Assembly: GCA_003167255.1 (NCBI GenBank)
Contig: PMTR01000016.1
Location: forward strand, 23,116-81,269
Direction of reading: 5' to 3'
Origin: Bryobacterales bacterium
GTDB lineage: Bacteria > Acidobacteriota > Terriglobia > Bryobacterales > Bryobacteraceae
DNA length: 58,154 bases
Positions 21,562 through 47,726 of this stretch are shown one piece after another (the first letter of the stretch is position 1; every line of letters begins with the position of its first letter). The notes beneath the pieces are model-generated. The model worked only from the letters and a program-made list of their open reading frames with translations, did no database searches and was not told the origin of the DNA. The position numbers were made by a program, and so were the translations under genes.

Positions 21562-22566
21562 TTGAACACCTGCTCACGCGCCGCTCTGCTGGTGGGCGCC
21601 GCCCTCGTGCTCACTGTTCTCTGGGCGCGGCGCGAACCCGTAGCCCGACCGGGCATCACGCTCGAACCCGTGCGCCTTCTCGCCGATGGCTATGACACCG
21701 CCATCCTCACCTTCCACTCCGCTCAGCGGCCTCGCATCACCATCGACCCGTCCTACGCCGCCACAGTGGAAAACGCCACCGATTCCACCACCCGCATTCG
21801 CGCCGGAGTCCTTCCCGCGCAAATCCACGTGCGCGTCGAGTTCCCTAACTTCCCGCCTGCCACGTTGCAACTCGCCACCTCGCTCGCTGCCGCCGACACC
21901 TTCCAGGACGGCACCCCCGACTTTCTCCGACTGGACGATGACCGCGACCGCCTGGCCTTTCGACGCTGGTTCACGTTCCTCGCCGAGACACAGTATTTTC
22001 AGCCTCCCGATGCCCGTCCCGCCGAGATCCACGATTGCGCCGCGCTCATCCGCTACGCCTACCGCGAAACCTTCCGCACGCACGATGCGGGATGGGCCGA
22101 AGCCGCGGGCGTGCCCGTGGTCCCGGCATTCGATCCGTCGGGCAAGTATCACTATCCCTACACGCCCCTGGCCGCCGAACTGTTCCGCGTCCGTGCAGGG
22201 CCGCTCGCCCCGGGCGATTTCTCCAGCGGCGCATTCGCCCAATTTGCCGACGCCCAAACCCTGCGCCGCTTCAATACCCATTTCCTGACGCGCGATCTTA
22301 CCCGGGCGCAATCCGGCGACCTGCTCTTCTTTCGTCACGACGCAACCTTCCATAGCATGATCTATCTCGGCCGAAGCCAGCTTCGCCCCGACGGCAATCT
22401 CTACGTGGTCTACCACACCGGCCCCGACGGCGGCGACCCGGGCGAAATCAAGCGTCTCACCCTGCCGGAACTCCTCCACTTTCCGCAGCCCGATTGGCGC
22501 CCGCTGGCTGCCAATCCCAAATTCCTCGGCGTGTATCGCTGGAACATCCTGAGAGAGGCGTTATGA
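21562..22566 (+). CDS. DUF1175 protein (YfaT-like), NlpC/P60-like fold
   Basis: The 334-aa protein has an N-terminal signal/anchor (residues 6-22), a beta domain (25-115) and a DUF1175 domain. The Cys helix [15 protein letters not shown] and the later [19 protein letters not shown] look like the Cys and His parts of an NlpC/P60-type cysteine-hydrolase fold, which suggests peptidoglycan or isopeptide hydrolysis (inference). DUF1175 genes sit beside alpha-2-macroglobulin genes (E. coli yfaT-yfaS), as here. The stop overlaps the next ATG in ATGA, so the two are translationally coupled. Confidence 0.85.
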
Positions 22567-25500
22567 GTAAGTACAGCATTGCATATATAGGGCGTCGTAT
22601 GACAGGAAGAACGCTCCCTGACGGTCGCGGCTCGGATGGGAGCGGCGCGCGTCAGCAAGCGTTCTGGCGATACACGGGGGAACTTCTGAAACCACTTACT
22701 AAGTACCTGCAGTTGGTCCTGTTGCTCGCCGCCGTGGCCACTGGTCTCAGCCAGTCCGAGACTCAGCCCTATTTCGCGCTCGCCTCCAGCCAGACCTTCG
22801 GCACGCACTCCAAGCCCTCCGTCTCGGTCAGTAGCTGGGCCGTCGACGCGCTCGAATTCCGTGTCTACCGCATCGAAGATCCGCTCAAGTTCTTTCAGGA
22901 GATCGAGAACCCCCACCAGTTCGGCGCACGCACGCCGGCGCCGCCCCACGAGCGCACGCTGCTCGAGCGGATCCATATATGGAAGCGCAGCCTCCGCGCG
23001 GCCATTCGCCTTGGGCTTCGCGCCCAGTTCACGGAATCGCCCAGTGCCCATTTCGAAAAACTGTTTCCCTCGAAATCCACCGCCCAGCCCGGCGGCCGCG
23101 AAACGCATTACGCGGAAGCCCCCGTCCTGAACGCCCAGCAACTGGTGCTTTCGTTTGTGCAGCCCGTACAGAGCCGCAACCGCTGGGAGCGCCAAACCGT
23201 CCCCGTGAATGTTGCCGGAAAGGGCGTGTATATCGTCGAGGCCGTCACAGGCCAGCTCCGCGCCTACACCGTGTTGATCGTTTCCGATTCCGTCCTCATC
23301 ACCAAGACCGGCAAGGGACGGATCGTCAACATGCTGGTCGATCGCTCGACCGGCGAGCCCCTTAGGGACGCCAAGATCTGGATGCTCGGCCGCGATTCCA
23401 GCCTGGGTAACGCCACCACCGATGCCGAAGGCGTCGCCGTTCTGCCCATTCCCGCCGGCCGCCCCGATGACGTACGACTTCTCGCCCGCAACGGCTCCGA
23501 CTACGCCGTCAACACCCTCGCCGAGTACGCCTTTTCCGTCAACCAGCCCACTTGGATGGGCTACATCTATACCGACCGGCCGGTCTATCGCCCCGGCCAC
23601 ACGGTCCACTTCAAAGGTATCCTGCGCTTGCGGACTGCGGCCGGTTACGAAGTGCCCGCCGGCAAGGCCATCTCCATCAGCATCCAGGATCAGGAACAAA
23701 AGCCGGTCTACCAGAAGAGCCTCAACACCAGCGCCAACGGCACCATTCACGACGATCTCACGCTCCCGCCCTCGGCCGCCCTCGGCAATTACTTCATGGA
23801 GGTCAAATCCACCGTGGGTGAGGGCTACATGAATGGCAGCTTCGAGGTGGAGGAATACAAGAAGCCCGAATACGAAGTCCGGGTTATTCCCGGCAAACCC
23901 CGCGTGCTGCAGGGCGAAGCGGTGCAGGCCTCGATCGACGCGCGCTACTACTTCGGCGAGCCCGTCAGCAGCGCCAAAGTCCATTACACCGTCTACCGCG
24001 ACCGCTATTGGTTCCCGCTCTGGTACGACCCCGATGAATCCACGTCGGAAGATTTCGCCGGCGGCGATAACGACGACACCGGCGATCAAGTGGCCGACGG
24101 CGACGGCGTGCTGGATGCCGATGGCAAACTCACCATTAACGTCTCAACCACCGTTTCCGAACACAAGGCCGACTACCTGTATCGCGTCGAGGCCAGCGTC
24201 ACCGACCTGGGCAAACGCGAGATCACCGGCAAGGGCTGGATCGTCGCCACCTACGGCAGCTTCGTCCTCAACGCCACGCCCGAACATTACTTCTATGCGC
24301 CGGGCTCCCTGGCCACGGTGACCGTCGAGGCGCGCGACTACGATAGCAAGCCCGTGGCCACCGCCTTCCACGTCAGGCTGCTTCGCTACAACTTCTATGA
24401 CCGCAAGCCCGGAGAAGTGAAAGCCGAAGCCGATGGCAGCGCCGGGGAAAGCGGGCAGGGCACGGTCAGCCTCAGCGTCCCCGCCGACGGCGGTTACTAT
24501 CGCGTGGAAGCTACCGCGCGCACGCCCGAAGGCCGGGACGTCCTGGCCATCACCGACTTCTGGGTCTCCGGCGGCGTCTCCGGCCAATCCCGCAACACTC
24601 GCAAGGAAATCCAGATTATCCCCGACAAGAAAACCTACCGCGCCGGCGATACCGCCAAACTCCTGCTGGTCACCGGCCAGCCCAACACGCCGCTCTGGGT
24701 CAGCGTGGAGGGCCGCGACCTCCAGCAGTACAAACTCGTCCGCTCGCCGCAATCCACCGCCGAGTTCACCATCCCCGTCACCGCCGCCGATGAGCCCGGC
24801 ATTACCGTCTCCGCCGCTTTCATCCGCGCCGGCGATCTCTACGCCGGCACCAAGTACCTCAAGGTTCCCGCCGAGCAGCACCAGTTAAACGTCAAGCTCT
24901 CGACCGACAAGCCGCAATATCAGCCCGGTCAGACGGCCGATTACACCTTCGACGTCACCGGCGCCGGCGGCCGGCCCGTTCCGGGCGCCGAGTTCTCGCT
25001 CGGCGTGGTCGACGAAGCCATCTATGCGGTCCGCCGCGACACGCTGCAGGATCCGCTGGCCTTTTTCTACGGCCGCGAATGGAACCGTGTCTTCACCGAA
25101 AACTCGCTGAACTTTTTCTTCAGCGGCGAAGCCGGCAAGCGCCGCATGCAACTGGCCCAATTGCGCGCGCCGAGCCGTTTGGCCCAGCTCAAACCCGACC
25201 GCATGGCCGAACCCAAAATCCGCAAGGCTTTCCCCGATACCGCGTTCTGGGCCGCCGATATCGTGACCGATGCCGCCGGCCACGCCCGCGCCAAGGTCGA
25301 GTTCCCCGATTCCCTTACCACTTGGCGCGCCACCGCCCGCGGCGTCACCCCCGACACCAAGGTCGGCGGCGCCACTCTCAAGACCATCGTGCGCAAAAAC
25401 CTCATCCTGCGCCTGGTGGTGCCCCGCTTTTTCGTGCAAGGCGATGAGGTGGTCGTCTCCGCGCTGGTTCACAACTACCTCGCCGACGCCAAAAACGCGC

Positions 25501-27308
25501 GTGTCTCGCTCGACGTCCAGGGGCTCGACATCCTACAGGGCGAAACCAAGGAAGTCTCGATTCCCAGCCGCGGCGAAGCCCGCGTCGACTGGCGCGTCCG
25601 CGCCCGCGCGGTCCACGCCGCCAGCGTCACCGGCAAAGCCCTCACCAACGAAGAGTCCGACGCCATGCAATTGGACTTGCCCGTCAACATGCCCGGCGTC
25701 AAACTCTCGCAGCCGCGCGGCGGCTCGCTGGCCGCCGGAACCGAAACCTCCTTCGATCTCACCTTCCCGGCCAATATCCATCCCGGTTCGCGTTCGCTCA
25801 CCGTGGGGGTTTCGCCATCCATCGCCGGCTCGCTGTTCGGCGCGATGGAGTACCTCACTTCTTTCCCCTATGGCTGCGTTGAGCAGACCATGTCCAGCTT
25901 CCTGCCCAACATTACCGTTCGACAGGCGGTGCAGGATCTCCACTTGAAGGTCAACCTCGATGATGCCGCGCTGCATGAAAAGATCCGTGCCGGCCTCGAC
26001 CGTCTCTACAACTACCAGCATGAAGACGGCGGCTGGGGCTGGTGGGAAACCGATGAGAGCCATCCTTTCATGACCGCCTACGTGGTGGCGGGGCTGACGC
26101 AAGCCAAGGCCGCCGGCGTCACCGTGAAAGACGAAGCCATCGCCAAAGGCGCCGTCTGGCTGGAACGGGATTTCGCCCGCGATCCCAAGCTCATGCCCGA
26201 CCTGCGCGCCTACATGCTTTACGCACTGAGCGTCACCGGCCGCGGCGATTCCGCCTCATTCGCTCAGATCTACGACAAGCGTTCGGCTCTGTCGCCGTAT
26301 GGTCTTGCCATTCTCGGCCTGGCGCTCGAGCAAATTAGAGACGCGCGCGCCGCCGACATCGTCACCCAACTCGAAGCCGCCGCCCAGCAGGATGCCGAGC
26401 AGGCCTGGTGGCCCGCCACCCGCGACCAGATGCTCGACTTCTCCGAAGACGTCACCGCGGAGGCCACCGCCTACGCGGTGAAATTCCTCTCGCACCAGCA
26501 CCGTGACAGCGCTCTGCTGCCCAAGGCCGCGCTGTGGCTCATGAACCATCGCAACGAAGGCTTCTGGTGGTCCTCCACCAAGCAGACCGCCATGGTGATC
26601 TACGGCCTCACCGATTACCTCCGCTCGACCAACGAGCTAAATCCTAACCTCACTGTTACGGTGTTCGTCAACAATCGCCAGGTGCTCAACCGCACCATCG
26701 ATCAGGCCACTAACCTGAATCCGCCGCCGCTCACGCTCGATGATTCCGCCTTGCAGCCCGGCGCGAACCACATCCGCGTCTCGACCACCGGCCAGGGCCG
26801 TCTCTACTACTCCGCGCGCGCCGAATACTATTCCACCGAAGACAAGCTCCAGAAGACCGGGACGGCTTCGCTCAATATCCTGCGCGATTATTTCCGCCTG
26901 GTTCCCGGCAAGGATGGCGATAAGATTGTCTACGAAACCGCGCCGCTCGACGGCTCCGTGGCCTCCGGCGACGTCATCGCCGTGCGCCTCACGGTTACCG
27001 GCTCCGAATGGAAATACCTGATGCTGGAGGACCCCATCCCCGCCGGCACGGAGTTCATCGAACGCGACAATATCTACCAGTTGCGCAACCGTCCGCCCTG
27101 GTGGGATTACTATTTCACGCGCCGCGAGCTGCACGACGACCGGTTAGCCATCTTCCAAACCTGGTTCCCGGCAGGCCAGCACCAGTATTTCTACCTGCTG
27201 AAAGTAGTCAACCCCGGCATGTTCCAGGTGAGCCCCGCGCGCGTCGCACCCATGTATCAAACCGGTGTGATGGCGACCAGCGAGGCCCGCCGCCTGGAGG
27301 TGAAGTAA
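22563..27308 (+). CDS. Bacterial alpha-2-macroglobulin with thioester motif (YfaS-like), N-terminus disrupted by a repeat insertion
   Basis: The start at 22563 forms ATGA with the preceding stop (1581 aa). MG domains follow, with the MG2 signature [17 protein letters not shown]. The ANA/A2M domain begins near [14 protein letters not shown] and the thioester CVEQ is at Cys1105-Gln1108 ([10 protein letters not shown]). The complement-like alpha/alpha toroid follows ([19 protein letters not shown]). Bacterial A2Ms trap proteases in the periplasm and link them covalently through the thioester. The hydrophobic signal segment ([13 protein letters not shown]) does not start until codon 49, because a 132-bp element is inserted after codon 4 (22575-22706). 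Without it the protein would begin [17 protein letters not shown]. Confidence 0.9.
22568..22706 (+). mobile_element. Small palindromic insertion with 7-bp target duplication in the A2M gene
   Basis: TAAGTAC occurs at 22568-22574 and again at 22700-22706. The 125 bp between contain an imperfect hairpin, 22608-22632 against 22641-22665 (20 of 25 positions pair), with an 8-base loop. Inserted DNA plus one repeat is 132 bp, exactly 44 codons, so the frame survives. The inserted peptide contains [10 protein letters not shown], a phrase I recall as the translation of dispersed palindromic repeats in Acidobacteria. It is best read as a MITE/REP-type insertion. Confidence 0.8.
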
Positions 27309-28414: not shown

Positions 28415-28642
28415 TCAACTCCGCCGGGAGCCGGCGCGCCTGGCAATCTCCGCCAGGGACCGCAACGCAGCGTTGACCGCGGCCGCGTTCGGAAACAGGT
28501 CGGCAACTTCGGGGTCAAGGACAACCACGTTTGAACTCGTTTGGAGTCGCTCGACGTATTTCCCGCGGACCAGCGCGCCGAAATCCGAGCGTTTATACTC
28601 GGAACGAAGTTCGTCCGCGGCAAGCTTCTTAGCCTTCCTCAT
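28415..28642 (-). CDS. Antitoxin-like protein paired with BrnT
   Basis: The 75-aa protein begins MRKAKKLAADELRSEYKR and ends with a helix (AVNAALRSLAEIARRA). The form SDFG-LVRGKY followed by VVVLDPEVADLFPN is what I recall for small acidobacterial and cyanobacterial antitoxins next to BrnT-like or PIN toxins. Its ATG overlaps the last 14 bases of the BrnT-like gene, so the order is toxin then antitoxin, as in brnTA. Confidence 0.7.
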   Translation of the reverse strand: MRKAKKLAADELRSEYKRSDFGALVRGKYVERLQTSSNVVVLDPEVADLFPNAAAVNAALRSLAEIARRAGSRRS

Positions 28643-28901
28643 AGAGCTTCCTCTCTGCCCGCGTTGCGTGGCGAGCGGTGATGATCCGAATGGCGTCTTC
28701 CTGCTGTGCGTGTGCGACCACAAGCAGGCGGCCCGAGGACGACATGCCAAACGTCACGAATCGCCTTTCGTCGAGCGAATGATCCGGATCATCGCCCGTT
28801 GCCGACAGGAGATCAAAGAACACGCTCGCAGCTTCATCGAATGAGATGCCATGGTTCCGTAAGTTCGCGGCAGCCTTTAGAGCGTTCCATTCGAAGCGCA
28901 C
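28629..28901 (-). CDS. BrnT-family toxin (RelE-fold ribonuclease)
   Basis: The 90-aa protein starts at GTG. The motifs are FEWNALKAAANLRNHGISF at the N-terminus, DPDHS then ERRFVTFG in the middle, and RIITARHATRAERKLYEE at the C-terminus. They match the BrnT family, toxins that cleave RNA and are neutralised by the protein of the overlapping gene downstream. The conserved Lys, His, Arg and Tyr/Glu positions are all present, so it looks intact. Confidence 0.85.
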   Translation of the reverse strand: MRFEWNALKAAANLRNHGISFDEAASVFFDLLSATGDDPDHSLDERRFVTFGMSSSGRLLVVAHAQQEDAIRIITARHATRAERKLYEEG

Positions 28902-28942: not shown

Positions 28943-30364
28943 TCATTTCCTCTTCACCTCCACCGGCAACCCACTCCTCACCCAACTCAAAACCACCGCT
29001 TCCCCATAGCGCGCCACCAGTCCCGCGACCGTGGCTGCCGCCTGCTCATAAGCACGCCGCGCCTCCGCCGCGCTCGTGCGCTGCCGCATCGCGGAATCCG
29101 GCTGTCCGGACGCGGTTGTCACCGCGTGTGCGCCTCCGCCGGCCAGGTACTCCACGAGTCCTTCCCGAAACCATGGCGGCAAGCCGGCGGCTGCCTGCGA
29201 TTCCATCACCACGTGCAACATCTCGTGCCGCACCGTCGATTCCAGCGCACCGTGCGACCGCAGCATCGCTACCGGCTGCATGTGAACGCGCCGGCCATCG
29301 GTGCGCGCCGCTACCCAACCCGGCTCGCCCGTGGCATTGCGAAAGCTGTCGAGATCCGGATACACCCGAATCTCCACGCCTTCCGGCGCCTGCGCGTGCA
29401 GCCGCTCCGCCGCCGCACGCAGTTCCCGCTCCGCCAACTCGAGCACCGCACCATCGAGCGAGGGCGCGGTGGTAAACAGCGCGACGCGCTCGCCTGCCAC
29501 CCGCTGCCACGTCAAACCACGCCCCGTGATCCCCAACGCCGCGCCCGGAAAGTAGAACGCCAGAATCTCGCGATAGCTCCGGCCCGCGGCGCCCATCTGG
29601 TCCGCACCGCGCTGGCACAGCCCCACGCCGTGCCCCGAGCCCGTCCCTTCGAACACCGGCCAGTGGATCTCGTACCGGTCGCTCTCCACTGTGTTCCATC
29701 CGAATGCGCGGCCCAGCGCAAAACGGAACGCGCTCGCGCTCACGCGGACCGATTCTCCCGCGCCGCGCAACGCCAGTGTCCGCGCGCGCCCCGAAGCCGT
29801 GTGCTCGACCACCCCCACGCGCTCCACCATTTCCGGCGTGCGCAGTCGTGATTGCCGCAGCGCCTCCACGATCTGCCGCGGATCGGCCTCCCATCGCCAC
29901 TTTGCCGCCGCGCAGTACGGATCCTCGTGGCTCTTGAGATATGGCGCCGACAGATTCCACACCGCCGCTCCGTCTTCCGTGCGTCCGCCGCAATCCCGCG
30001 TGTAGCACGTGAAGGCCGGCTTGCCTTCATACCAGAGCATTTCACCCATGGTGGCCGCCGCCGCTTCCTCGAGGCGCGGCGTAATCCCCTGCAGTTCGAT
30101 GTGCTGGCAGTGGGTGGTCGAGCAGAAGTCGTAGCCCTCCGCGGCGTGCCGTCCCCGCAGCAGCACCGCGTACGTGCGCGCCGCCACAGCCATGGCCTTC
30201 AGCGCCTCCTCGGAGCGAAATGTGCCAACTTCTCCGGCCAGCACCGCCGCCACGTAGCGCTCCAGCGGCAGCGTGACGGTCTCCGCTCCCACGCGCACCT
30301 TGAGAGAGGTCTGCGCCGCGAGTGCCGCGGCTACGGCCAGTCCGAGTAAGACCGCGCGCCTCAC
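28943..30364 (-). CDS. SpoIID/LytB-domain protein fused to a C-terminal peptidase-MA-like metallopeptidase domain
   Basis: The 473-aa protein has a signal peptide (residues 1-18). The SpoIID domain spans residues 20-275: LPLERYVAAVLAGEVG with Glu45 at the position of the lytic-transglycosylase Glu, AMAVAARTYAV, the Cys-rich CYTRDCGG and GHGVGLCQRGADQMG. Residues 295-473 form a second domain with HEMLH (His380, Glu381, His384) and a downstream Glu401 in PPWFREGLVEYL, the ligand set of gluzincin metallopeptidases. It would cut glycan strands and peptides at the cell wall or protect the macroglobulin system (inference). Its start overlaps the transpeptidase stop by 4 bases. E. coli yfaQ, next to yfaS/yfaT, is a possible functional analogue. 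Confidence 0.85.
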   Translation of the reverse strand: MRRAVLLGLAVAAALAAQTSLKVRVGAETVTLPLERYVAAVLAGEVGTFRSEEALKAMAVAARTYAVLLRGRHAAEGYDFCSTTHCQHIELQGITPRLEEAAAATMGEMLWYEGKPAFTCYTRDCGGRTEDGAAVWNLSAPYLKSHEDPYCAAAKWRWEADPRQIVEALRQSRLRTPEMVERVGVVEHTASGRARTLALRGAGESVRVSASAFRFALGRAFGWNTVESDRYEIHWPVFEGTGSGHGVGLCQRGADQMGAAGRSYREILAFYFPGAALGITGRGLTWQRVAGERVALFTTAPSLDGAVLELAERELRAAAERLHAQAPEGVEIRVYPDLDSFRNATGEPGWVAARTDGRRVHMQPVAMLRSHGALESTVRHEMLHVVMESQAAAGLPPWFREGLVEYLAGGGAHAVTTASGQPDSAMRQRTSAAEARRAYEQAAATVAGLVARYGEAVVLSWVRSGLPVEVKRK

Positions 30365-31104
30365 TTCGCCGCCCCGCGCAACACTTCAGCCGCCACCGGC
30401 GCTGCGTCGGCTCCGCCGGACCGTCCCTGCAACATCACCACCACTACCATGGCCGCGGTGAACCCCGCGAACCACGCAATGTGCGCCCCGCCCGCCGTAC
30501 GGACGCTGCCCGTCTTGCCCGCCACCGCCAGCCCCGGCACCGCCGCGCGTTGCGCCGTCCCGAATTCTACCGCGCCCTTGAGTCCGTCGAGGATCGCTGG
30601 TTCCCCGCCCAGCGCGATCTGCCGGTAAGCCTGCGCCAGTTCCATCGGATCGACCAGCACGCGCTCCTCGCCGAGTGCCTGCAGTTGGCTCGCCTCACGC
30701 GTGGCGGCGGCCTGTGTCCGGCCGATCCCGAATCGTTCGAGCCCCCGCGCCAGCTCTCCCGGCTCAAAGCGTTCCGCCACGTGCGCTGTGAATGCGTTGC
30801 ACGAATACGCCAGCGCCGTCCGCAAATCGATCGGCGTGTTCATGTGCGGATGCGAACAATCGAACCGCCGCCCGCCGATCAGCAGCCGCCCCGTGCACGG
30901 AAAGGCTTCGCCGGGGTCCAGTTTCTTGGCGCGCAGCAACGTCGAAAACACCAGCGGCTTCAGCGTCGATCCCGGCGGGGCGATCAGCTCGGCATTCTGC
31001 GCCGTGAGCACGCGGCGCGTGCGAACGTCCAGCAGGATCACCGCGCGCCGTGGAGCCGGGGCCGCCGCCGCCGCCAAAAGCGCAAGCGCGTCCCGGCGCA
31101 ACAT
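30361..31104 (-). CDS. Small penicillin-binding-protein transpeptidase domain
   Basis: This 247-aa stand-alone transpeptidase starts MLRRDALALL (a Tat/Sec-like lead). The active-site set is complete: Ser46-x-x-Lys49 (PGSTLKP), Ser101-Cys-Asn103 (AYSCNAF) and Lys197-Thr-Gly (AGKTGS). It lacks the glycosyltransferase and dimerisation domains of ordinary PBPs, and the domain itself is shorter than usual (about 250 against 300 residues or more). It could act as a DD-transpeptidase/carboxypeptidase or a sensor. It is coupled by a 4-bp overlap to the SpoIID fusion gene. The frame extends to 31119 (MGEST), but the next ATG at 31104 fits the signal better. Confidence 0.8.
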   Translation of the reverse strand: MLRRDALALLAAAAAPAPRRAVILLDVRTRRVLTAQNAELIAPPGSTLKPLVFSTLLRAKKLDPGEAFPCTGRLLIGGRRFDCSHPHMNTPIDLRTALAYSCNAFTAHVAERFEPGELARGLERFGIGRTQAAATREASQLQALGEERVLVDPMELAQAYRQIALGGEPAILDGLKGAVEFGTAQRAAVPGLAVAGKTGSVRTAGGAHIAWFAGFTAAMVVVVMLQGRSGGADAAPVAAEVLRGAAK

Positions 31105-31201
31105 GGTCGATTCGCCCAAGACTCATTGTGCCGCAGAATCACAAGTGTGGCGCAGGCGCGAGGTGTCTTCCCGCGGCTTCATCCACTGCCCGCATTGCCG
31201 G

Positions 31202-35129: not shown

Positions 35130-36421
35130 TGTCGCCTTGGATTAGCACCGGGGCCGTCGTACACGGCCCGCATTGGATTAGCACTGTGGGCGTCGTGCCC
35201 GGCCGCCCGCCATGCGGCAAACGACAACTCGGCGCCGTTGGATGGCAGCCAGCGGTTGGGGCCCGCCGAATAGAATGTGTTGTAGTCCGATTGCAGCAGA
35301 CTGTCCTGCTCCGGATTGTTGATGCGAATAAAGCCGCGATAGGCGTCGCTGGTCTGGGTGGTGAAGGCAAACATGTTGTTCACCACCATCCACGGCCCCA
35401 TACCGCCGATTTCCGCGCCCATCCCGGTGATGTTTGGGTCGTCCACAAGCAGCAGGTTCTGAGTCGCCGTCGCGCTCCCGTTGGTGATGCCGCCAAACTG
35501 GCGAAGCGCATTATTGTAGAAAACGTTCTGCGAGATGTTAATGGTGAGAACCAGTCCCACATCTCCCAGGTAGATCCCCGCCGAAGCGTTGCTCGAGACG
35601 GTGTTCCCGGTGACGCTCACATTGCCCGTGAAACTTCCCGAGATTCCACGCCCCGCCTGGTTCTGGTTGGGATTGCCGTTGCGCGAGATGTCGTTGCCGG
35701 CGATCGCCACGTTGGTGAGGTTCGGAATGTTGGCGCCGGTGTGGCCCAGGTAGATGCCATTCGCGCTCTGCCAGCCCTGGCCGCCGATGTTGTCGTGAAT
35801 GTAGTTGTTGGAAATCAGAAACCCCGCCTGCGGGCCGACGTTGCCATCGATCAGGATGCCCGCGTAGCTGTTCGTCAGGTCCAGACTGTTGGCGTAAATC
35901 TCCGAATCCTCGATGGTGGTGTTGCTTCCGTTGAACGCCAGAATGCCGTTGAACTGGTTGTCATGAATCCGGCAGTTCCGGATCGTCAGGAAGTTCGCCG
36001 TGTACGGCACTACGCCATCGCGCTGGGAGTTGCGCACCTCCAGGCCGTCCAGCACCAGGTAGGAGCGCGCACTCGCGTTCACCAGGCCGGTTTGTGTGGC
36101 CAGCGTTAAGTTCGTCCCGTCGATCGCGGGCATATTTCCCGTCCCGTAGGCGCCGAAGGTGATGGGCGCCCCGTCGCTGCCCGATGCATTGATCTGCAAC
36201 TGTTCTCCCCACTTCTCGCCCCGCTTGAGCAGCACATAATCCCCGGGGTTCAGACGCGTCTGACGGATCCGCGCCAGGCTCTGCCAGGCGCTCGACGTGG
36301 CTGTTCCCTGGTTGTTATCCGAGCCGCCCGTGTGATCCACGTAATACACCGCGCTATGCGCCGGGTGCAGGCACCCCGCCAGCAGCACCGTGATTGTTCC
36401 CAGCTTGCTAGTACGCGCCAT
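35126..36421 (-). CDS. Secreted right-handed beta-helix protein (lyase/epimerase-like)
   Basis: I start at 36421 (MARTSKLG), which overlaps the end of the WbaP-like gene by 14 bp. The signal peptide ends near HPAHS. The mature part opens with YYVDHTGGSDNNQGTA-like text followed by repeats of NxIxxN type (IRNCRIHDNQFNGI, ISNNYIHDN, VAIAGNDISRNG, VTGNTVSSN), i.e. pectate-lyase-type coils. Such proteins in exopolysaccharide operons are lyases or C5-epimerases that trim the polymer in the periplasm; catalytic residues cannot be assigned from sequence. Confidence 0.8.
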   Translation of the reverse strand: MARTSKLGTITVLLAGCLHPAHSAVYYVDHTGGSDNNQGTATSSAWQSLARIRQTRLNPGDYVLLKRGEKWGEQLQINASGSDGAPITFGAYGTGNMPAIDGTNLTLATQTGLVNASARSYLVLDGLEVRNSQRDGVVPYTANFLTIRNCRIHDNQFNGILAFNGSNTTIEDSEIYANSLDLTNSYAGILIDGNVGPQAGFLISNNYIHDNIGGQGWQSANGIYLGHTGANIPNLTNVAIAGNDISRNGNPNQNQAGRGISGSFTGNVSVTGNTVSSNASAGIYLGDVGLVLTINISQNVFYNNALRQFGGITNGSATATQNLLLVDDPNITGMGAEIGGMGPWMVVNNMFAFTTQTSDAYRGFIRINNPEQDSLLQSDYNTFYSAGPNRWLPSNGAELSFAAWRAAGHDAHSANPMRAVYDGPGANPRRQ

Positions 36422-37844
36422 ATCCCGTAACCACCACTTTGATGGTGCGCGCCAGAAGGTAAATATCCAGCCAGGGCGACCAGTTGCGCACATAATAGGT
36501 ATCCAATTCCACCCGCTCATCGTAGGAGCGCAGGTTCCGGCCCGAAACCTGCCACAAGCCCGTCAGCCCCGGAATCACCTGGCGATACAGGGCGAAGGCG
36601 CTGCCGTACTTCTGAATCTCGCTATCTACGATGGGCCGCGGCCCCACCATGCTCATCTCGCCGCGCACCACGTTGACCAATTGGGGAAGCTCATCCAGGC
36701 TGGCTTTGCGCAGAATGCGGCCCAGCCTGGTGACGCGCGGATCGTTTTTCAGTTTCTGGCCGCTCCGCCATTCTTCCGCCGCTTCCGGGTTCTTCGCCAG
36801 GTGGCCGGCCAGCATCTGCTCCGAATTCACCCGCATGGTGCGGAATTTCCACACCCAGAATTTCTCGCAATCCAGACCTATGCGGCTCTGCCGGTAGAGA
36901 ACCTTGCCGGGCGATTCCAGCTTGGTCAGCAAAGCGATCAATGCCAGCAGTGGTGACAGACACACCAGCAACAGCAAAGAGAACGCCAGATCCAGCAGCC
37001 GCTTGGCGGTGCGTGGACCGGCCATCAGCAGATTCTTCCGCATTTCCAGAGCCAGCACGCGGTTCAAGTCCCTGGTCTCAACCCCAATCGAAGACAGGCC
37101 GTGCAGCTTGGGAACCATGAACACCCTCGAAAACGTCTGTGCGTGCATATCCAGAAGCGCCACCATATCCGGCATGGGCACATCCTGCAAAGCCACAATC
37201 GCTCGCGTGATATTGGCGCCCTTGGCGAATGCCGGCGCGCTCGAGATGGGTCCCCGCACCACGATGCCATGTACCACCGTTCCCCGAGGCACGTTGTCGT
37301 CGAACACCGCCGCCGGCCGCAGGCCAATCTCCGGATGCCGCGCCAGCTTGCGGAGAATCGCCTCGCCTGACCCGGTGGCGCCGAGCACCACCACCCGGTA
37401 TCCCCACCACGGCTGGTCCGCCACCGCCGCGCGTATCATGGAACGCAGCAGCGGCACCACCACCAGGCAGGCCACCCAGGCGCCGAAGAATGCCAGACGG
37501 GAGTAAGCGCCGGGATTGCGCAACAGGAACGTAAGCGCCCCCAGCACCAGGAAGACCAGCGTGGTTGCGTAACTGGTGGTTCGCAACTCCGCCACCGGGC
37601 TCAACACCACCCCCGGATACAACCCGAACAGTGCGTAAGCGGCGGGGAATAGGCCCAGCAGCGGCCACAGACGCCAATATACGCCCAGATCGAAGTTTCC
37701 GCGAAAGATCTGTCTCACCATCACGGCCAACGCGATGGTTCCCGCGATAGCCGCAAGATCCGAGGCCGCCATCACCGACCCGGTGAAGCAGGGACGCTGC
37801 CGGGTCTCCGTCGCGGCGCCGTGCATAACAAGTGCTGTTGCCAT
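36408..37844 (-). CDS. Initiating polyprenyl glycosylphosphotransferase (WbaP-like)
   Basis: The start at 37844 has GGAG 8 bases upstream. N-terminal membrane helices (residues 25-145) are followed by a CoA-binding-like Rossmann part (VVVLGATGSGEAI). The C-terminal catalytic bacterial sugar-transferase domain has KRLLDLAFSLLLL, SRIGLDCEKFWVWKFRTM, RKASLDELPQLVNV and MSMVGPRP, all signature motifs of the WbaP/WcaJ family. It starts the repeat unit by moving a sugar-1-phosphate to undecaprenyl phosphate. It identifies the cluster as Wzx/Wzy-type. Confidence 0.93.
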   Translation of the reverse strand: MATALVMHGAATETRQRPCFTGSVMAASDLAAIAGTIALAVMVRQIFRGNFDLGVYWRLWPLLGLFPAAYALFGLYPGVVLSPVAELRTTSYATTLVFLVLGALTFLLRNPGAYSRLAFFGAWVACLVVVPLLRSMIRAAVADQPWWGYRVVVLGATGSGEAILRKLARHPEIGLRPAAVFDDNVPRGTVVHGIVVRGPISSAPAFAKGANITRAIVALQDVPMPDMVALLDMHAQTFSRVFMVPKLHGLSSIGVETRDLNRVLALEMRKNLLMAGPRTAKRLLDLAFSLLLLVCLSPLLALIALLTKLESPGKVLYRQSRIGLDCEKFWVWKFRTMRVNSEQMLAGHLAKNPEAAEEWRSGQKLKNDPRVTRLGRILRKASLDELPQLVNVVRGEMSMVGPRPIVDSEIQKYGSAFALYRQVIPGLTGLWQVSGRNLRSYDERVELDTYYVRNWSPWLDIYLLARTIKVVVTGYGAY

Positions 37845-37854
37845 CAAGTATCTC

Positions 37855-38979
37855 CTACGCGTGCGCCGGCGTTTCCACCGGCATTCCAGTCACTTCCTGG
37901 TAAAGCGAAACCGTCTCCGTCAACATCCGGCCAAACGTGAATCGCTGTTCAAACCTGCGCCGGCCGTTGGCGCCCATCCGTTCCCGTTCCCCCGCATCGC
38001 CGATCAACCGCTCCAGCGCCTCCGCCAGGCTCTCGATCGACTGCTTCGGAACCACGTATCCGTTGTGCCCATCCGTTACCGCTTCCCTCACCCCGCCGAC
38101 ATCCGAAGCCACCACCGGCAGACCCGCCCGCATGGCTTCGAGTATGCTCCTCGGAAACGCTTCCGACCGCGAAGAGAGTACGAACATCTGCGCCGATGCG
38201 AGCGCCTCCGCCACCTGTACCGTGTGGCCGGCAAACTGCACCCGGCCCTGCATTCCCAAGGCCAGCACACGCGCGCGCACCGGTCTCTGCAACGGGCCTT
38301 CGCCCACCAGCGAAAGGCTCCAGCGCAGGTGTTGCACTTTTCCCAACGCCTCCACCAACGTGTCGTGATCTTTCGGCGCCTCAAAGCGCGCCACCATAAC
38401 GATGTGGGGCGGGTTGAGCCCCGGCCAGGCCCGCTGCCCGGCCGCCACCTCCGGCATCCCGTTGTGAATCACCCGGTGCCGCCGCGCACTGCCAATGCCA
38501 TACTGCAGCGCCAGTTTCCGCTCGTACTCGCACACGTTGACGATCCCCGCCGCCAGCGGCGCGGTGGCCCGTTCCACCAGCCGGTAGATCCAGCCCTGGC
38601 GGCGCGAGATCCGGTCCGTAATGGCCCAACCGTGCGGCGTGTACAGCACCGGAATGCCCGTTCCCGAGCAGGCCAGTCTGGCGATACAGCCAGCCTTGGC
38701 GGTATGGGCCGAAACCAGGTCCGGCCGGATGCTCTTGATCGCCTTCGCCAGTTCCCGCACGGCCAGCGCGTCCTGCCAGGGGCTGACCTGGCGGCAAAGG
38801 TGTCGCAGCGAAACCACCGGGATGCCGCACTCTTCCAATTCGCGGCTCACCATGCCGGTCCCGCCCACCACTACCGTCGGCTGGTGTCCCCCCGCCATCA
38901 GCGCCCGCGAGAGATCGCGGACGTGAACGGTGGCTCCTCCCACTGCATCGGCGCGCGTAATGACAAAAGCAATCTTCAT
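37855..38979 (-). CDS. GT4-family glycosyltransferase
   Basis: The start at 38979 (MKIAFVITRA) follows the upstream stop by 4 bases. The GT-B fold shows the N-lobe GGATVHVRDLSRAL, the hinge text IHNGMP, HIVMVARFEAPKDHDTL, and the donor site SSRSEAFPRSILEAMRAGLPVVASDVGG with its Glu-x7-Glu pattern. The 374-aa length is typical. It adds one sugar to the lipid-linked unit. Confidence 0.9.
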   Translation of the reverse strand: MKIAFVITRADAVGGATVHVRDLSRALMAGGHQPTVVVGGTGMVSRELEECGIPVVSLRHLCRQVSPWQDALAVRELAKAIKSIRPDLVSAHTAKAGCIARLACSGTGIPVLYTPHGWAITDRISRRQGWIYRLVERATAPLAAGIVNVCEYERKLALQYGIGSARRHRVIHNGMPEVAAGQRAWPGLNPPHIVMVARFEAPKDHDTLVEALGKVQHLRWSLSLVGEGPLQRPVRARVLALGMQGRVQFAGHTVQVAEALASAQMFVLSSRSEAFPRSILEAMRAGLPVVASDVGGVREAVTDGHNGYVVPKQSIESLAEALERLIGDAGERERMGANGRRRFEQRFTFGRMLTETVSLYQEVTGMPVETPAHA

Positions 38980-38983
38980 GGCG

Positions 38984-39739
38984 TTATTGCAAAACCGCAA
39001 ATCTCAACCAGCGAGCAAGCTCGATGGACCCCGCGCTCAAGCGGTCCGCCAGCCCCGGCCGCCGCTGTGCGTACTCGGCCGCAATCTCCTCGAACCCGGC
39101 GATGCGCTCGCCGAACCGCTCCACGTCCTGGCCGAACCGCCGGACCTTTTCCGGCGTCCAGGCGTTGATGTGGCAGCATACCGTCCATACGCCCGCGGGC
39201 ATGCGGCGGAACCGCCCCAATTGCTGCGGAATCCACAACAGGCCGCGCCCGTTCATGTGCGGCAGCACCGAGTAACCGTCGCTGATCCGCCGGATGCCGC
39301 ACTCCGCCAGAACCTCCAGCGTGACTTCGTCGAAAGAGTGCGCCGGCGCCACCCACACCCGCGGCTCGACGCTCTGCTCCGCAAAGATCGCCGTCGCGCT
39401 CCGTAACTTGCCGAGCTGCCGGCCGCGGCCCAGGCCCGCAAATTCGCTATAGCGATTGCGGCCAATGATGCCGGGCTCGGTGGTGATGTATACGTGCTGA
39501 TAGCCGTGCAAGCCCATGGTCCAGCCCTGGCTCTGCCAGCGCCGTGCCTGCTCCCAGAAATCCGCCCGTGCCGGCGCCACGTTCAGGTGGGCGTCGCGGT
39601 TATCGGGCACAATCGCCACCAGCGGACGCACACCGTTGGCGTGCAGCACGCTTTCGACTTCGCGCCATACCGTCCAGTTCATTCCCGGACAGACATCGTC
39701 GAAGCGCAGCAGATATTTGGCGGCCGTTACCAATTCCAT
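38984..39739 (-). CDS. DUF2334-like deacetylase-fold protein
   Basis: The ATG at 39739 lies inside the end of the previous gene (13-bp overlap). The 251-aa protein starts with KYLLRFDDVCPGM (motif-1 Asp-Asp), followed by VAIVPDNRD, GLHGYQHVY (motif 2, His-Gly-x-x-His) and VAPAHSFD. This resembles the NodB-like DUF2334 family. It is probably a second deacetylase for the polymer, differing from the one at 34206 by a true Asp-Asp motif and a shorter body. Confidence 0.8.
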   Translation of the reverse strand: MELVTAAKYLLRFDDVCPGMNWTVWREVESVLHANGVRPLVAIVPDNRDAHLNVAPARADFWEQARRWQSQGWTMGLHGYQHVYITTEPGIIGRNRYSEFAGLGRGRQLGKLRSATAIFAEQSVEPRVWVAPAHSFDEVTLEVLAECGIRRISDGYSVLPHMNGRGLLWIPQQLGRFRRMPAGVWTVCCHINAWTPEKVRRFGQDVERFGERIAGFEEIAAEYAQRRPGLADRLSAGSIELARWLRFAVLQ

Positions 39740-40494
39740 TTCCTCCGGTCCAGCAGCCGCATCGCAACCCGCGCTCCGAGCGCCGCGGCGCCCATCAGGC
39801 TGTTCGAACGGTCCGCGTTGTACTGGTGAACGCGCTCTCCGCCAAAGCTCTCTTTGAAATGGTTGATCTTCAGCTTTTCCACATCCGTCTGCCCGGCATA
39901 CCAGCCGCCGAAGTCGTAAACCCCCAGGCCCGTTTCCTTGCAGTGCAGAATGTCCATCCAGTGCAGGTACCGGTTGGCCCGCCCCATCATGGTCGCTTCG
40001 AGCTTGTCCGCCACGCGGAAATGCGATGCCGAGTGGATCAGGCGCGCGCAGTTGCGCATCCGCAGATACGCATGCCACACCAGCACCCGTCCGTCCGCGC
40101 CGCGAACCCGGGAAAGATCCAGCACGTCGTGCCGCCGGAAAGCCGAGATGCGCGTGCGATTGACCCGCGGAACATTCTTGATATCGGCGAAGCGGTCGTA
40201 AAAGCCGAAAAACTCCTCTGCCAGAGCGGCGTCCGGGTGACTGTGATACTCGCAGGCAAAGTTGTCCTTGCCTGCGCGGCGGATTTCGTACCGCGTCTCT
40301 TTGTGAATTTTGGAGAGAATCGTATCGGCGTCGCACGCCAGGTCCAGGCACAGCGTGTGGAAATCGCTCGATTCGCAACCCTTCACCGGATCGGGACGAA
40401 ACTGGTAGCGCACAATGTCCGCCGGCGTGCGCGACTCCTGCTCGTCAAAAAAGAACTCCGCGACCCGCACGTGCGCCTTTTCATAAGTAATCAT
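39727..40494 (-). CDS. FemAB/GNAT-like protein
   Basis: The 255-aa protein starts 2 bases after the upstream stop. KGCESSDFHTLCLDL, HKETRYEIRRAGKDN, VWHAYLRMRN and SASHFRVADK are the sort of patterns seen in FemAB-type acetyl/aminoacyl transferases of exopolysaccharide clusters. It ends with an HFKESFGGE-like motif and a basic tail. By analogy with the larger paralogue at 31202 it may acylate the repeat unit. Confidence 0.65.
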   Translation of the reverse strand: MITYEKAHVRVAEFFFDEQESRTPADIVRYQFRPDPVKGCESSDFHTLCLDLACDADTILSKIHKETRYEIRRAGKDNFACEYHSHPDAALAEEFFGFYDRFADIKNVPRVNRTRISAFRRHDVLDLSRVRGADGRVLVWHAYLRMRNCARLIHSASHFRVADKLEATMMGRANRYLHWMDILHCKETGLGVYDFGGWYAGQTDVEKLKINHFKESFGGERVHQYNADRSNSLMGAAALGARVAMRLLDRRKWNW

Positions 40495-40496
40495 CT

Positions 40497-41696
40497 TTAG
40501 ATCTCCACCGTTTCCGGAATTCGCTTCTGCTCCAGCAGCCTTGTGTAGAGCTCTTCCCACTGGTCCAGAATTGCGTCCATGCCGAAGCGCGAAAGCACAA
40601 ACTCGCGCGCGGCCTCTCCCATGGCGCGGCGCTCGGCGTCGCTCAAGCATGCCAGCCGCTGCATCGCCAGGCCCAGCTCGCGCGGGCGCCGTGGCGGTAC
40701 CAGCAGCATGCGCTGCTCGGGCGGCAGTACTTCGGCGTTGCCGCCTACCCGGGTCGCCACCATCGGCAGCCCCGATACCCCGGCCTCCAGCATCACCAGG
40801 GGCATGCCTTCGAAAACCGAGGACAGGACCAAGCCATCCGCCGCCTGCATGAGCTGCGGGATATCGGTGCGAACTCCCAGGAAGCGGACGTACGGCGTGA
40901 TTCCCAATTCCTCCGCCAGGGCATCCAGGTGCGGCCGTTGGCTTCCCGCTCCCGCGATCAGTAGCACCTGCGTAACATCCGCCTCCAGAGCTACCGGGAA
41001 GGCGCGCAACATGGTGGCGTAGTCCTTGACCTTTTCCAGCCGCCCCACCGCCAGCCACGCAAACTCATCGCGCAGGTTCAGATTCCTTCGCTCCCGCAGC
41101 CGGACAACCTGGTTGGGCGCGTAGGCCTCCTCCGGGATGCCGTTGGGGATCACCATCAGCCGCTTTCGGGATACCGCCTTGACCCGCGCATAGCGTTCCC
41201 CGGCGGCTTCGCTCACCGCGGTGGTGATATCCGCCAGCCCGTCGGTCAACCGGTGCGCCAGCTCCCGCAGGGCCGCGCCTTCGGCCTTCACCGAGTACAT
41301 CTTGTGTCCGTGAAGCGTGCAGATCAGCACGGGCATGGGACAGAACGGCCGCGCCGTTCGCGTCAGCAGGCTGGCATGGGTCATGTGGCTGTGGACCACA
41401 TCCGGCCGGCGGTCGCGAACCTCGCTCAGAAAGCGCAGGAAGCCCGCCAGGCCGCGCACCCCGCGCTCCATTTCGAGCGATGTCACCCGCACCTGCGCGC
41501 CGCGAAAGTCCGGCAGCGGCGGGCACAAGGGCAACATGGTGACGATCTCCACGTCCCAACCCCGGCGGCTCAACCCCGCCGCCATGTTCACTACCTGTGT
41601 CTCCGCTCCTCCCGTGAGCGAAAGACAAGTGGTCACCATCATGAGGCGCGGCCGCGTCTTGGTTCGTCTTTGCCGAAGCTCTTGCGTCGGTGTCAT
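40497..41696 (-). CDS. GT4-family glycosyltransferase
   Basis: The start at 41696 makes ATGA with the previous gene. The GT-B features are SLTGGAETQVVNMAAGL, VHSHMTHA, VIPNGIPEE, LLIAGAGSQRPHL and SSVFEGMPLVMLEAGVSGLP followed by TRVGG. The 399-aa product is clearly related to the next gene and to 37855, an expanded set of GT4 enzymes that build the repeat unit. Confidence 0.9.
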   Translation of the reverse strand: MTPTQELRQRRTKTRPRLMMVTTCLSLTGGAETQVVNMAAGLSRRGWDVEIVTMLPLCPPLPDFRGAQVRVTSLEMERGVRGLAGFLRFLSEVRDRRPDVVHSHMTHASLLTRTARPFCPMPVLICTLHGHKMYSVKAEGAALRELAHRLTDGLADITTAVSEAAGERYARVKAVSRKRLMVIPNGIPEEAYAPNQVVRLRERRNLNLRDEFAWLAVGRLEKVKDYATMLRAFPVALEADVTQVLLIAGAGSQRPHLDALAEELGITPYVRFLGVRTDIPQLMQAADGLVLSSVFEGMPLVMLEAGVSGLPMVATRVGGNAEVLPPEQRMLLVPPRRPRELGLAMQRLACLSDAERRAMGEAAREFVLSRFGMDAILDQWEELYTRLLEQKRIPETVEI

Positions 41697-42847
41697 ATCG
41701 GTGTGCACTTGCCGGCGCGCACACCGGCTGTCGTTCCGGCGTACTCTTGCCCTAAAAGCTGTTCGTAAAGTTCCGTGTAAGCCCGAACCATTGCCGGAAG
41801 GTCAAAGCGTGCCAGCGCGCGCTCCCGGCCGGAGTTCCCCATCTTCCGCAGCACCGCCGGCTGGGCCTGCAGCAGGCACATCGCATCGGCCATTCCAGCG
41901 GCATCGCCCGCTTCCACCAGCAGACCGTCGCGGCCGTGCCGCACCAGTTCCGGGATGGCGCCAACGCCGGTCGCCAGGACGGCGCGCCCCGCGGACATCG
42001 CCTCCATCACCGACAACGGATTGCCTTCCCATCGGGAAGACAGCACGAAAACATCGGCCGCCCCCAAGACATCGGCGATATCGGCCCGCTGGCCGAGAAA
42101 CGTCACCTGGGCCGCGATTCCCAACCGGCTCGCAAGATCCGCCGTGGCTTCCCGCAGCGCGCCTTCTCCCGCCAGCAGCAGCCGCGCGCCGCCGATGCGC
42201 CCCGGGCCCTTCGCGAAAGCCTCCAGTAACGTGCGGTGGTCTTTTTGCGGCCAGAAGCGGGCCACCGAGAGATATACGAATTCATTCGCATCGACGCCAT
42301 GGCGCGCGCGCCACTCGGCTCGCGAAACGGCCGGCGCACAATACTGGCGCACCGGAATGCCGTTCGGAATGAGCGCCGCTTCCTGGAACCCGTACACGCG
42401 GCGGAAGCTGGCAGAAACCTCGTCGCCGATCGTTACCGCCCTGACGCCCATGCGAAACGCGAACTGTTGCAGCCAGAGTCCGGTACGGTCTACTTCCCGA
42501 TCCGCCACGTTGTGGATGGTGTGAACCATCCCCGGCACGCGCAGCGCCGCCACCGGATAGGTGTAGCGAAGGACGTAATTGTGGGTGTGCAGAATGTCGG
42601 GCCGGAAGTCGCGCAGCACGCGCATCATCCGCGGATACATCCGCAGGTCCAGACCACGCCGCTTCTCCAGGTGATACAGCCGGACACCCGCTTCCCGCAA
42701 GGAATCTTCCAGTCCGCCCGGCGTTTCGGCGTACAGGCTGACCACGCCCGTCTGAAAGCGCGCCCGATCCATGGAGCGCAGCAGGCTCGCCACCATGTTT
42801 TCCAGTCCGTAAGGCACCAGGTCCGGAACTACGTGCAGAACTCGCAT
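41693..42847 (-). CDS. GT4-family glycosyltransferase
   Basis: The start at 42847 overlaps the O-antigen ligase stop in TGATG. The features are PYGLENMVASLLRS, LHTHNYVLRY, LIPNGIPVRQY, LLAGEGALRE and SSRWEGNPLSVMEAMSAGRA followed by TGVGAIPE. The donor-site Glu pair is present. Confidence 0.9.
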   Translation of the reverse strand: MRVLHVVPDLVPYGLENMVASLLRSMDRARFQTGVVSLYAETPGGLEDSLREAGVRLYHLEKRRGLDLRMYPRMMRVLRDFRPDILHTHNYVLRYTYPVAALRVPGMVHTIHNVADREVDRTGLWLQQFAFRMGVRAVTIGDEVSASFRRVYGFQEAALIPNGIPVRQYCAPAVSRAEWRARHGVDANEFVYLSVARFWPQKDHRTLLEAFAKGPGRIGGARLLLAGEGALREATADLASRLGIAAQVTFLGQRADIADVLGAADVFVLSSRWEGNPLSVMEAMSAGRAVLATGVGAIPELVRHGRDGLLVEAGDAAGMADAMCLLQAQPAVLRKMGNSGRERALARFDLPAMVRAYTELYEQLLGQEYAGTTAGVRAGKCTPI

Positions 42848-44085
42848 CACGGTAGCGCGACCTCCTTCATCCCCATCCGCATTCCCAACCGCGGCGCGCT
42901 CCGCCGCGCACGCATTTCAGGCAGTAGCCGCGCTTCCGCCAGAATCAGGGCGAAGATCAACCACGTGGGCTTGCGGGTCTCCCAACTCAGCGTGCTTACC
43001 CCCACGCCCCAAACCAGCAGCGTCATCGCCCAAACCACCCGCTTCAGCCCCTGCATCCGGCGCACGGCCAGAACGAGGCTCAGCAGAAACAGCGAAAACA
43101 GCGCGAATCCAACCATGCCCGTCTCCACCATCACCGAAAAGAACGTGTTGTGCGCCACAATCAGCCAGCCCTTGGGAAAGCCCAGCATTGGCTCCACGCT
43201 GCGTGGGAATGCTCCCCCGCCCACTCCCGCCACCGGGTGCTGCCGGAAGGAAACCAGGCCGGCGTTCCAGATGAGTTCGCGGTTGTTCAGGGTGCCGGAG
43301 GAAACTTCCGACCCAATTGTGGAAAGCCGCTGCCACGAGTTCGCCGGGATCACCGCCACGGCCGCCGCCACCGCTACCAGCACCCCGCACGCGATCCATT
43401 TGCGCTCCACCCGCGGCAAGTACGGAAAACTCAGTGGCAACACCAGTGCCGCCAGGCAGACCGTCAGAAACCCCGTGCGCGACGCCGAAAGCAGAATCGT
43501 GAGCAGCGCCAGCATCATCTGCCCGCGGTAGACCCACGCCATCGCTCCGCGGCTGCGAACGGACAGGTAGTACGAAAGCGGAATGCTCAGCGCCAGCGTC
43601 AACGCCAGGTCGTTCGGATCGAAACCGGCCGCCGCGTAGCGTTGATAGTAGGTCTGGTGCGCCAGCACCCAGCGGCTGATGGTATCGAATGCCGCGTAGA
43701 GGGTTCCGAAAACGTACGCCCGCATCAGGCTGGCAATGCGGTCTTCGGTAGCTGCGAATTCCCAGATCAGCCAGGCCATCCCCAGCAGTTGCAGGTACGT
43801 CTGCACGTTCGCCGCGGTGTCGTTGGGAGCCACGCTCCAGCGCATGGTCAGCGCGGTCCACAGCACAAAGAGGGCCGGCGCCGCATGCACCGGGCTGAAG
43901 ACCCGGATTCGCCGGTCGATCAGCGCCGCCAGCATTCCCGCGCCCAGCGCAATTAGCCCGATGACCCGCGAAATGCTTCCCAGGCCGGGAATATTGATGG
44001 CTTTTTCAGCCGGGAAGGAGAGCACAAAGAGCCACAGAAATACAAAGGCAAACCGCCCGGCCGCCGTGAGATTCCCTCTACGCAT
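42847..44085 (-). CDS. O-antigen ligase/polymerase-like membrane protein (Wzy)
   Basis: The 412-aa protein has about eleven hydrophobic segments and a large periplasmic loop (residues about 255-320) containing LNNRELIWNAGL, HPVAGVGGGAFP and VAHNTFFSVMVETGM. The HNxF signature is the one shared by Wzy polymerases and WaaL ligases. In this operon with Wzx, Wza and Wzc it is the likely polymerase. It overlaps the flippase by 8 bp. Confidence 0.85.
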   Translation of the reverse strand: MRRGNLTAAGRFAFVFLWLFVLSFPAEKAINIPGLGSISRVIGLIALGAGMLAALIDRRIRVFSPVHAAPALFVLWTALTMRWSVAPNDTAANVQTYLQLLGMAWLIWEFAATEDRIASLMRAYVFGTLYAAFDTISRWVLAHQTYYQRYAAAGFDPNDLALTLALSIPLSYYLSVRSRGAMAWVYRGQMMLALLTILLSASRTGFLTVCLAALVLPLSFPYLPRVERKWIACGVLVAVAAAVAVIPANSWQRLSTIGSEVSSGTLNNRELIWNAGLVSFRQHPVAGVGGGAFPRSVEPMLGFPKGWLIVAHNTFFSVMVETGMVGFALFSLFLLSLVLAVRRMQGLKRVVWAMTLLVWGVGVSTLSWETRKPTWLIFALILAEARLLPEMRARRSAPRLGMRMGMKEVALP

Positions 44086-47718: not shown

Positions 47719-47726
47719 GCCAGCCC

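Follow-up and report, generated by a model that had tools for sequence, protein, structure and literature searches.

Results

Gene content of the locus

We analysed a 58,154-nucleotide stretch, hereafter the window, of contig PMTR01000016.1 from a Bryobacterales bacterium (GCA_003167255.1, forward strand, positions 23,116 to 81,269). The window contains a gene that joins a SpoIID domain, of the cell-wall-cutting type, to a C-terminal domain that resembles zinc proteases and carries an HExxH...E motif (Table 1). The fusion named in the original prediction proved real, since a single ORF of 473 residues spans both domains, and the numbering of the key residues was correct (E45 in the SpoIID domain; H380, E381, H384 and E401 in the C-terminal domain). 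Inspected by eye, the N-terminus resembled a signal peptide. The gene directly upstream encodes a 252-aa protein with a transpeptidase domain, and its stop codon overlaps the start of the SpoIID-HExxH gene within the sequence GTGA.

On the opposite strand, an alpha-2-macroglobulin (A2M) gene with CVEQ at residue 1128 runs towards the SpoIID-HExxH gene; because the two are convergent, they do not form one operon. As in Mag-type loci, a MagC-like (DUF1175) gene lies next to the A2M gene, and its product also matched NlpC/P60 just under the cut-off (22.3 vs 23 bits). The first ~75 codons of the A2M ORF (about 22510-22725, plus strand) matched 15 further sites of the genome, with stop codons in 10, and are probably a dispersed repeat. 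Since this N-terminal stretch is repeated across the genome, the true A2M start probably lies about 75 codons inside the ORF. DUF2135 and DUF2138, found in the E. coli partners YfaP and YfaA, gave 0 matches in the same genome, while the E. coli control was positive. The space that separates A2M from the SpoIID-HExxH gene holds a BrnT-type toxin gene (28629-28901, minus strand; PF04365, 5.9e-25), and the ORF next to it (28415-28750, minus strand) may encode an antitoxin. Outside the window, the same genome holds a second, distant A2M-like stretch (G000:C34:26296-28014; 24% identity), perhaps of another type.

Table 1. Positions of the genes, domains and motif residues in the window
Feature	Position	Strand	Details
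DUF1175 / MagC-like protein	21562..22566	+	PF06672 3.3e-63; PDB 7bk8 (MagC) 1.6e-21
Alpha-2-macroglobulin (A2M), CVEQ thioester motif	22494..27308	+	PF01835, PF07703, PF00207, PF07678, PF17973
SpoIID + HExxH protein	28943..30364	-	473 aa / codons, GTG start
C-terminal gluzincin-like domain	28946..29527	-	Residues 280-473
Glu401 codon, third zinc-ligand position (PxWxxEG)	29162..29164	-
HExxH motif	29213..29227	-	Residues 380-384; 14/14 full-length relatives; HExxH + Glu in 35/37 proteins of the phylum
SpoIID domain	29528..30277	-	Residues 30-279; PF08486, TIGR02669, 4rwr at 1e-23
Glu45 codon, position of the SpoIID catalytic Glu	30230..30232	-	Kept in 14/14 full-length relatives and 37/37 distinct proteins of the window's phylum
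Penicillin-binding-protein-type transpeptidase domain protein	30361..31119	-	SxxK, SCN, KTG; PF00905 2.9e-25

The SpoIID domain and relatives of the fusion protein

The window protein scored above the curated cut-offs of both PF08486 (63.2 vs 23 bits) and TIGR02669 (177.6 vs 83.3 bits), and the solved SpoIID chains 4rwr, 5i1t and 5txu aligned with it at 1e-23 to 7e-17. Assignment to the sporulation SpoIID itself was rejected, as the equivalog model TIGR02870 reached 120.7 bits against a cut-off of 234.75. The catalytic domain is common to stage II sporulation protein D and the window protein, which adds the C-terminal domain and the A2M context.

Among 61 genomes, comprising the window's own and its nearest relatives, 29 gave some match to the protein at E ≤ 1e-5, and 14, the window's own among them, encoded the two-domain protein; in the other matching genomes the match covered parts of SpoIID only or the C-terminal domain only (G060, G019, G012). 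In all 14 full-length relatives (14 genomes, window included), E45, H380, E381, H384 and E401 were invariant, and so were H73, C81, C86, H245, P396 and W398. This invariance bears out the retention of the key residues of both domains that had been claimed, and it argues that the two motifs are not a product of chance. The 11 viral relatives of the window protein matched within or just past the SpoIID part (query residues 2-322); when the C-terminal domain served as query, no viral relatives were found. Among plasmids, the window protein matched 16 records; every match lay inside residues 21-283, and in each the coverage stayed under 80% of the protein.

The C-terminal HExxH...E domain

Among the Pfam and NCBIfam models, no direct above-threshold family match was found for the C-terminal part; the isolated domain scored 13.7 bits with Peptidase_MA_2 (PF13485) against a cut-off of 32.4, and 12 of 34 relatives of the domain matched PF13485 at E ≤ 0.01. 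Three proteins that matched the C-terminal domain only were TPR proteins, L030 with a weak TPR match, and had HExxH...E in register. Two of them exceeded the Peptidase_MA_2 cut-off (L028, 40.9 bits; L029, 43.0 bits), which ties the C-terminal domain indirectly to metallopeptidases; no Peptidase_MA_2 match was found in the third, L030. When the profile of 28 SpoIID-linked domains was compared with that of six standalone proteins, the match reached 3.4e-22, with a score of 141; none of 40 shuffled controls scored above 17.

Further relatives were more distant. The NCBIfam flagellinolysin model matched 9 of the 14 family members, below its cut-off. A profile search of solved structures with the C-terminal domain returned 35 chains at E ≤ 10, of which 27 were aminopeptidase N-type enzymes (E 0.25 or worse), with HExxH and Glu in register in both alignments displayed; the top match, Aminopeptidase T (0.027), aligned downstream of HExxH only. 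AlphaFold models of the C-terminal region were of low confidence (mean pLDDT 51 and 41). By homology, we class the C-terminal domain as HExxH...E gluzincin-like. We take the two histidines and the glutamate of the motif to be zinc ligands, and we use 'gluzincin' and 'M1' as labels. The window protein has HExxH...E in common, and in register, with the TPR-Peptidase_MA_2 proteins, and domains of its type match the flagellinolysin model weakly; unlike both, it has no TPR or flagellin part and lies beside A2M.

The motif HExxH...E was kept in 35 of the 37 distinct SpoIID-gluzincin proteins of the phylum (double-locus proteins counted once), and the gluzincin domains of the relatives were 19 to 55% identical to that of the window. 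The two exceptions, L093 and L094, had lost the HExxH residues and retained the SpoIID Glu. These counts were taken from the 37 proteins because the 34-row alignment A5 omits five of the 14 rows of alignment A3 (L007, L008, L010, L014, L015) and four of the 29 other domains (L074, L088 and the motif-less L093 and L094), so that columns shown there as 'invariant' cannot serve for counting.

Fusions and neighbourhood in the family and phylum

A transpeptidase match was present in 10 of the 13 regions of the window's family, and in 4 of the 14 family members (L007, L012, L014, L015) the transpeptidase and SpoIID-HExxH parts formed one ORF. In a search of the phylum, 178 of 297 genomes matched; among the best 30 loci examined, SpoIID was in the same ORF in 24 and absent from it in 6. 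Wider regions were analysed for 20 of these best 30 loci, from nine other families of the phylum. Transpeptidase, SpoIID and gluzincin were found in a single ORF in 12 of them, the transpeptidase occupied an adjoining or overlapping ORF in 5, and none was seen in 3. All 28 transpeptidase domains inspected had SxxK and SCN, and 27 had KTG.

A2M was detected in 8 and DUF1175 in 7 of the 13 regions around family members, and the five regions without A2M were contigs of 4.7-10.7 kb. The 20 regions from other families contained A2M in 15 cases and DUF1175 in 13, and two of the five without A2M were cut by a contig end. The same-strand order DUF1175-A2M-three-domain protein, like that of E. coli, occurred in 6 of the 20 (L107, L110-L114); in further regions A2M lay ahead on the same strand (2) or was convergent as in the window (7). 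Across the 61 genomes, DUF1175 was found in 13 and the two-domain protein in 14, with 12 in common (Fisher P = 6.5e-10, and 5.9e-7 when restricted to the family's 37 genomes, relatedness ignored in both); G018 and G010 had the two-domain protein without DUF1175, and G012 had DUF1175 without the two-domain protein.

A2M loci of Deinococcota and other plasmids

A plasmid search with the window A2M returned 281 records, 8 of them from Deinococcus; five covered at least 80% of the query, all from Deinococcota. Seven plasmid A2M regions were examined, namely these five (one Meiothermus, four Deinococcus) and two others. In each of the five Deinococcota loci, A2M was directly followed by a gene for a small protein, annotated as hypothetical, that comprised nothing but the gluzincin domain (E 7e-24 to 5e-29 among 1243 ORFs). 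HExxH...E was kept in all five of these single-domain proteins, their profile comparison with the SpoIID-linked C-terminal domain gave 4.1e-20, and DUF1175 preceded A2M in 3 of the 5 loci. No gluzincin was found in the Gemmatirosa and Azospirillum plasmid A2M loci, and the Gemmatirosa locus had a penicillin-binding-like ORF after A2M.

Because the gluzincin domain stands alone after A2M in five Deinococcota loci, we regard it as a part that accompanies A2M even without SpoIID, and a protein of that complex is a more probable substrate for it than the peptides of the wall. The same arrangement makes doubtful the suggestion in the original prediction that the fusion protein also cuts peptides of the wall.

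The thioester motif CxEQ was present in 22 of 23 further A2Ms of the phylum (L042 lacked it by pattern) and in all five from Deinococcota. At the CxEQ place, the A2M of P. aeruginosa PA7 had GVEQ and that of Azospirillum had GTEQ; no thioester motif was found by pattern in the Citrobacter, Gemmatirosa and E. coli A2Ms, the E. coli gene being a pseudogene.

Comparison with YfaQ and MagE

In E. coli the gene order is yfaT-yfaS-yfaQ. YfaQ (b2226, 'tandem DUF2300') has an N-terminal SLWK, a Pfam SpoIID match (27 bits vs 23) and HEYLH near its end. P. aeruginosa MagE (PA4488) was traced in strain PA7 with the published magE primers (PMC5764988, Table 4), one matching exactly and one with a single mismatch, and the gene between them was a YfaQ homologue that follows A2M. 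HEYLH was present in all three YfaQ/MagE sequences, which have S.WK, carry SCG for SCN and KTW for KTG, and lack GHGVG.

BLASTP against YfaQ gave only short matches, the best (0.007) in SpoIID and one (0.72) spanning HExxH in register, and a profile comparison over the full length recovered SpoIID only. The domain profiles matched YfaQ/MagE at 5e-5 (transpeptidase), 3e-10 (SpoIID) and 2e-3 (gluzincin), with hhalign probabilities of 67, 97 and 14%, respectively, and each domain score exceeded all 100 column-shuffled controls. The gluzincin match was weak (0.0013-0.005, hhalign probability 7-19%; 0.0013 with the Deinococcota domains added), and for this reason we call the domain in YfaQ/MagE probable. 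A PF10062 (DUF2300) match of the window protein was discarded as evidence, since it scored 19 vs 25 bits and lay out of the HExxH register; 4 of 14 relatives matched this model at E ≤ 0.1, and none of 41 genomes did so at E ≤ 0.001. PF10062 itself matches two regions of YfaQ (84-205 and 412-532; L001:4149-5798) that lie in different domains, and therefore may mix domains.

The order of YfaQ/MagE (transpeptidase-like, SpoIID and HExxH, beside A2M and DUF1175) was found in the window over two overlapping genes. YfaQ/MagE thus have the domain order and the A2M neighbour in common with the window locus (in E. coli also DUF1175); unlike them, the window has two genes and intact transpeptidase and SpoIID (E, C/H, GHGVG) motifs. 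The architecture had been thought undescribed. With YfaQ/MagE as precedent, it is not unknown as such: Pfam detects SpoIID in YfaQ, and YfaQ has been published as a transpeptidase-like plus SpoIID-like protein with a predicted export signal, whose deletion gives wider cells (PMC12282094, 2025). The terms metallo, HExxH, zinc, macroglobulin, magE and yfaS do not occur in the main text of that paper. In the open-licence papers searched, we found no description of a metallopeptidase domain in mag/yfa A2M systems, and nothing on DUF2300 or on YfaQ together with macroglobulin. What appears to be new is a form of the mag/yfa A2M system that is seemingly intact and includes a metallopeptidase-like domain.

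Discussion

Bacterial A2Ms have been divided into type I, with a thioester and PBP1c, and type II, without a thioester and often in a six-gene operon (PMC5764988). As in type I, the window has a thioester A2M near a penicillin-binding transpeptidase domain; it differs in that the transpeptidase is 252 aa long and tied to SpoIID and gluzincin, and in having a MagC-like gene in addition. With the P. aeruginosa Mag complex (magABCDEF, type II), the window has A2M, MagC (DUF1175) and a MagE-type protein in common; it differs from that complex in an A2M that keeps CxEQ, where a type II A2M has none, and in a genome without DUF2135/DUF2138 matches. The loci analysed here fit neither type.

Because the same domain order lies beside A2M in YfaQ and MagE, the locus looks like mag/yfa. 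The sequences show directly which domains are present, that the catalytic motifs are intact, that the neighbourhood recurs and that fusions occur. Our preferred reading, to which we give a probability of about 0.6, is that the window holds a mag/yfa-type A2M locus with a split MagE/YfaQ-type component, and that its products form a wall-tied A2M complex with a dedicated gluzincin protease. The MagE/YfaQ-type component would be divided between the transpeptidase gene and the overlapping SpoIID-gluzincin gene, and the proteins of the locus would be exported. By binding or trimming peptidoglycan, the transpeptidase and SpoIID parts may connect the A2M complex with the wall. The gluzincin would act as a dedicated protease on a protein of the complex, most likely A2M (in its maturation, activation or turnover), and the whole system would protect the envelope upon breach.

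Published work on P. aeruginosa bears on this reading. MagD forms of higher mass were reported when magE was deleted, and the authors considered MagE cytoplasmic and suggested signal-peptide cleavage or a chaperone role (PMC5764988, 2018). This phenotype is compatible with loss of processing and would equally allow other causes. Text and figure legend of the same paper conflict on whether a 100 kDa form is missing without magC; a need of magE for the 100 kDa MagD form is not stated in the available part, which does not speak for a convertase-like reading. Two further papers report that MagD protects against wall-targeting effectors (PMC12663445) and call DUF1175 inactive and peptidoglycan-binding, with reference to a MagC paper (PMC10318531). 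The resemblance of several parts of a 'macroglobulin' operon to wall enzymes or wall binders would give a reason for its protection against wall-cutting toxins.

Bacterial A2Ms are structural cousins of complement proteins. A protease-like domain beside A2M recurs in the window's phylum and in Deinococcota and, less surely, in Pseudomonadota; such recurrence would make the higher-mass MagD seen on magE deletion testable at one residue. The thioester-bearing form is the version with intact enzyme motifs and hence open to assay.

In our assessment, it is rather unlikely that the C-terminal domain, with little or no catalysis of its own, serves A2M as a scaffold or chaperone and merely keeps the motif. 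The loss of catalytic residues in 2 of 37 phylum proteins, the SCG and KTW of YfaQ/MagE (not SCN and KTG) together with their missing GHGVG, and the chaperone role offered for MagE in PMC5764988 would all agree with such a function. Against this stands the retention of HExxH...E in 35 of 37 phylum proteins and all five from Deinococcota, and of HEYLH in all three YfaQ/MagE sequences, despite identities to the window domain of 19 to 55%.

We consider it quite unlikely that the protein is a bifunctional wall hydrolase, using SpoIID to cleave glycan strands and the HExxH domain to cleave peptides of the wall. The SpoIID residues are intact, HExxH and Glu are intact in 35 of 37 proteins, and the transpeptidase and the MagC-like DUF1175 protein, with its near-threshold NlpC/P60 match, are likewise wall-related. 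These features are outweighed by the five Deinococcota loci examined, where the gluzincin stands by A2M without SpoIID, and by the nature of the other gluzincin relatives, which are TPR-Peptidase_MA proteins and, more weakly, flagellinolysin and aminopeptidase N-type enzymes. We know of no wall peptidase among these three groups. Wall-peptide cleavage by the HExxH domain is possible and less likely than proteolysis of a protein of the locus.

Highly speculative, and improbable in our judgement, is the idea of a third kind of bacterial A2M system, possibly older than the two known ones. Here a complement-like thioester A2M would be cleaved and primed by its own dedicated metalloprotease, comparable to convertase and complement C3, the protease would be joined to peptidoglycan-reading modules (transpeptidase and SpoIID, with MagC beside), and wall damage could trigger covalent trapping; the proteobacterial Mag/Yfa systems would then have decayed in both thioester and enzymes. 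Finally, accidental proximity of A2M to a common type of secreted SpoIID/LytB protein whose protease domain has no relation to it would suit the wide distribution of SpoIID proteins, the convergent genes of the window and the 5 of 20 regions in which A2M was not seen, but is very improbable given that the A2M link recurs in the window's and other families, in two orientations and with fused or split transpeptidase, and that the protein co-occurs with DUF1175.

Elsewhere in the window, three ORFs on the minus strand of 36408-47853 code for a sugar transferase, a glycosyltransferase and a Wzz/tyrosine-kinase-like protein, a set that resembles an exopolysaccharide cluster.
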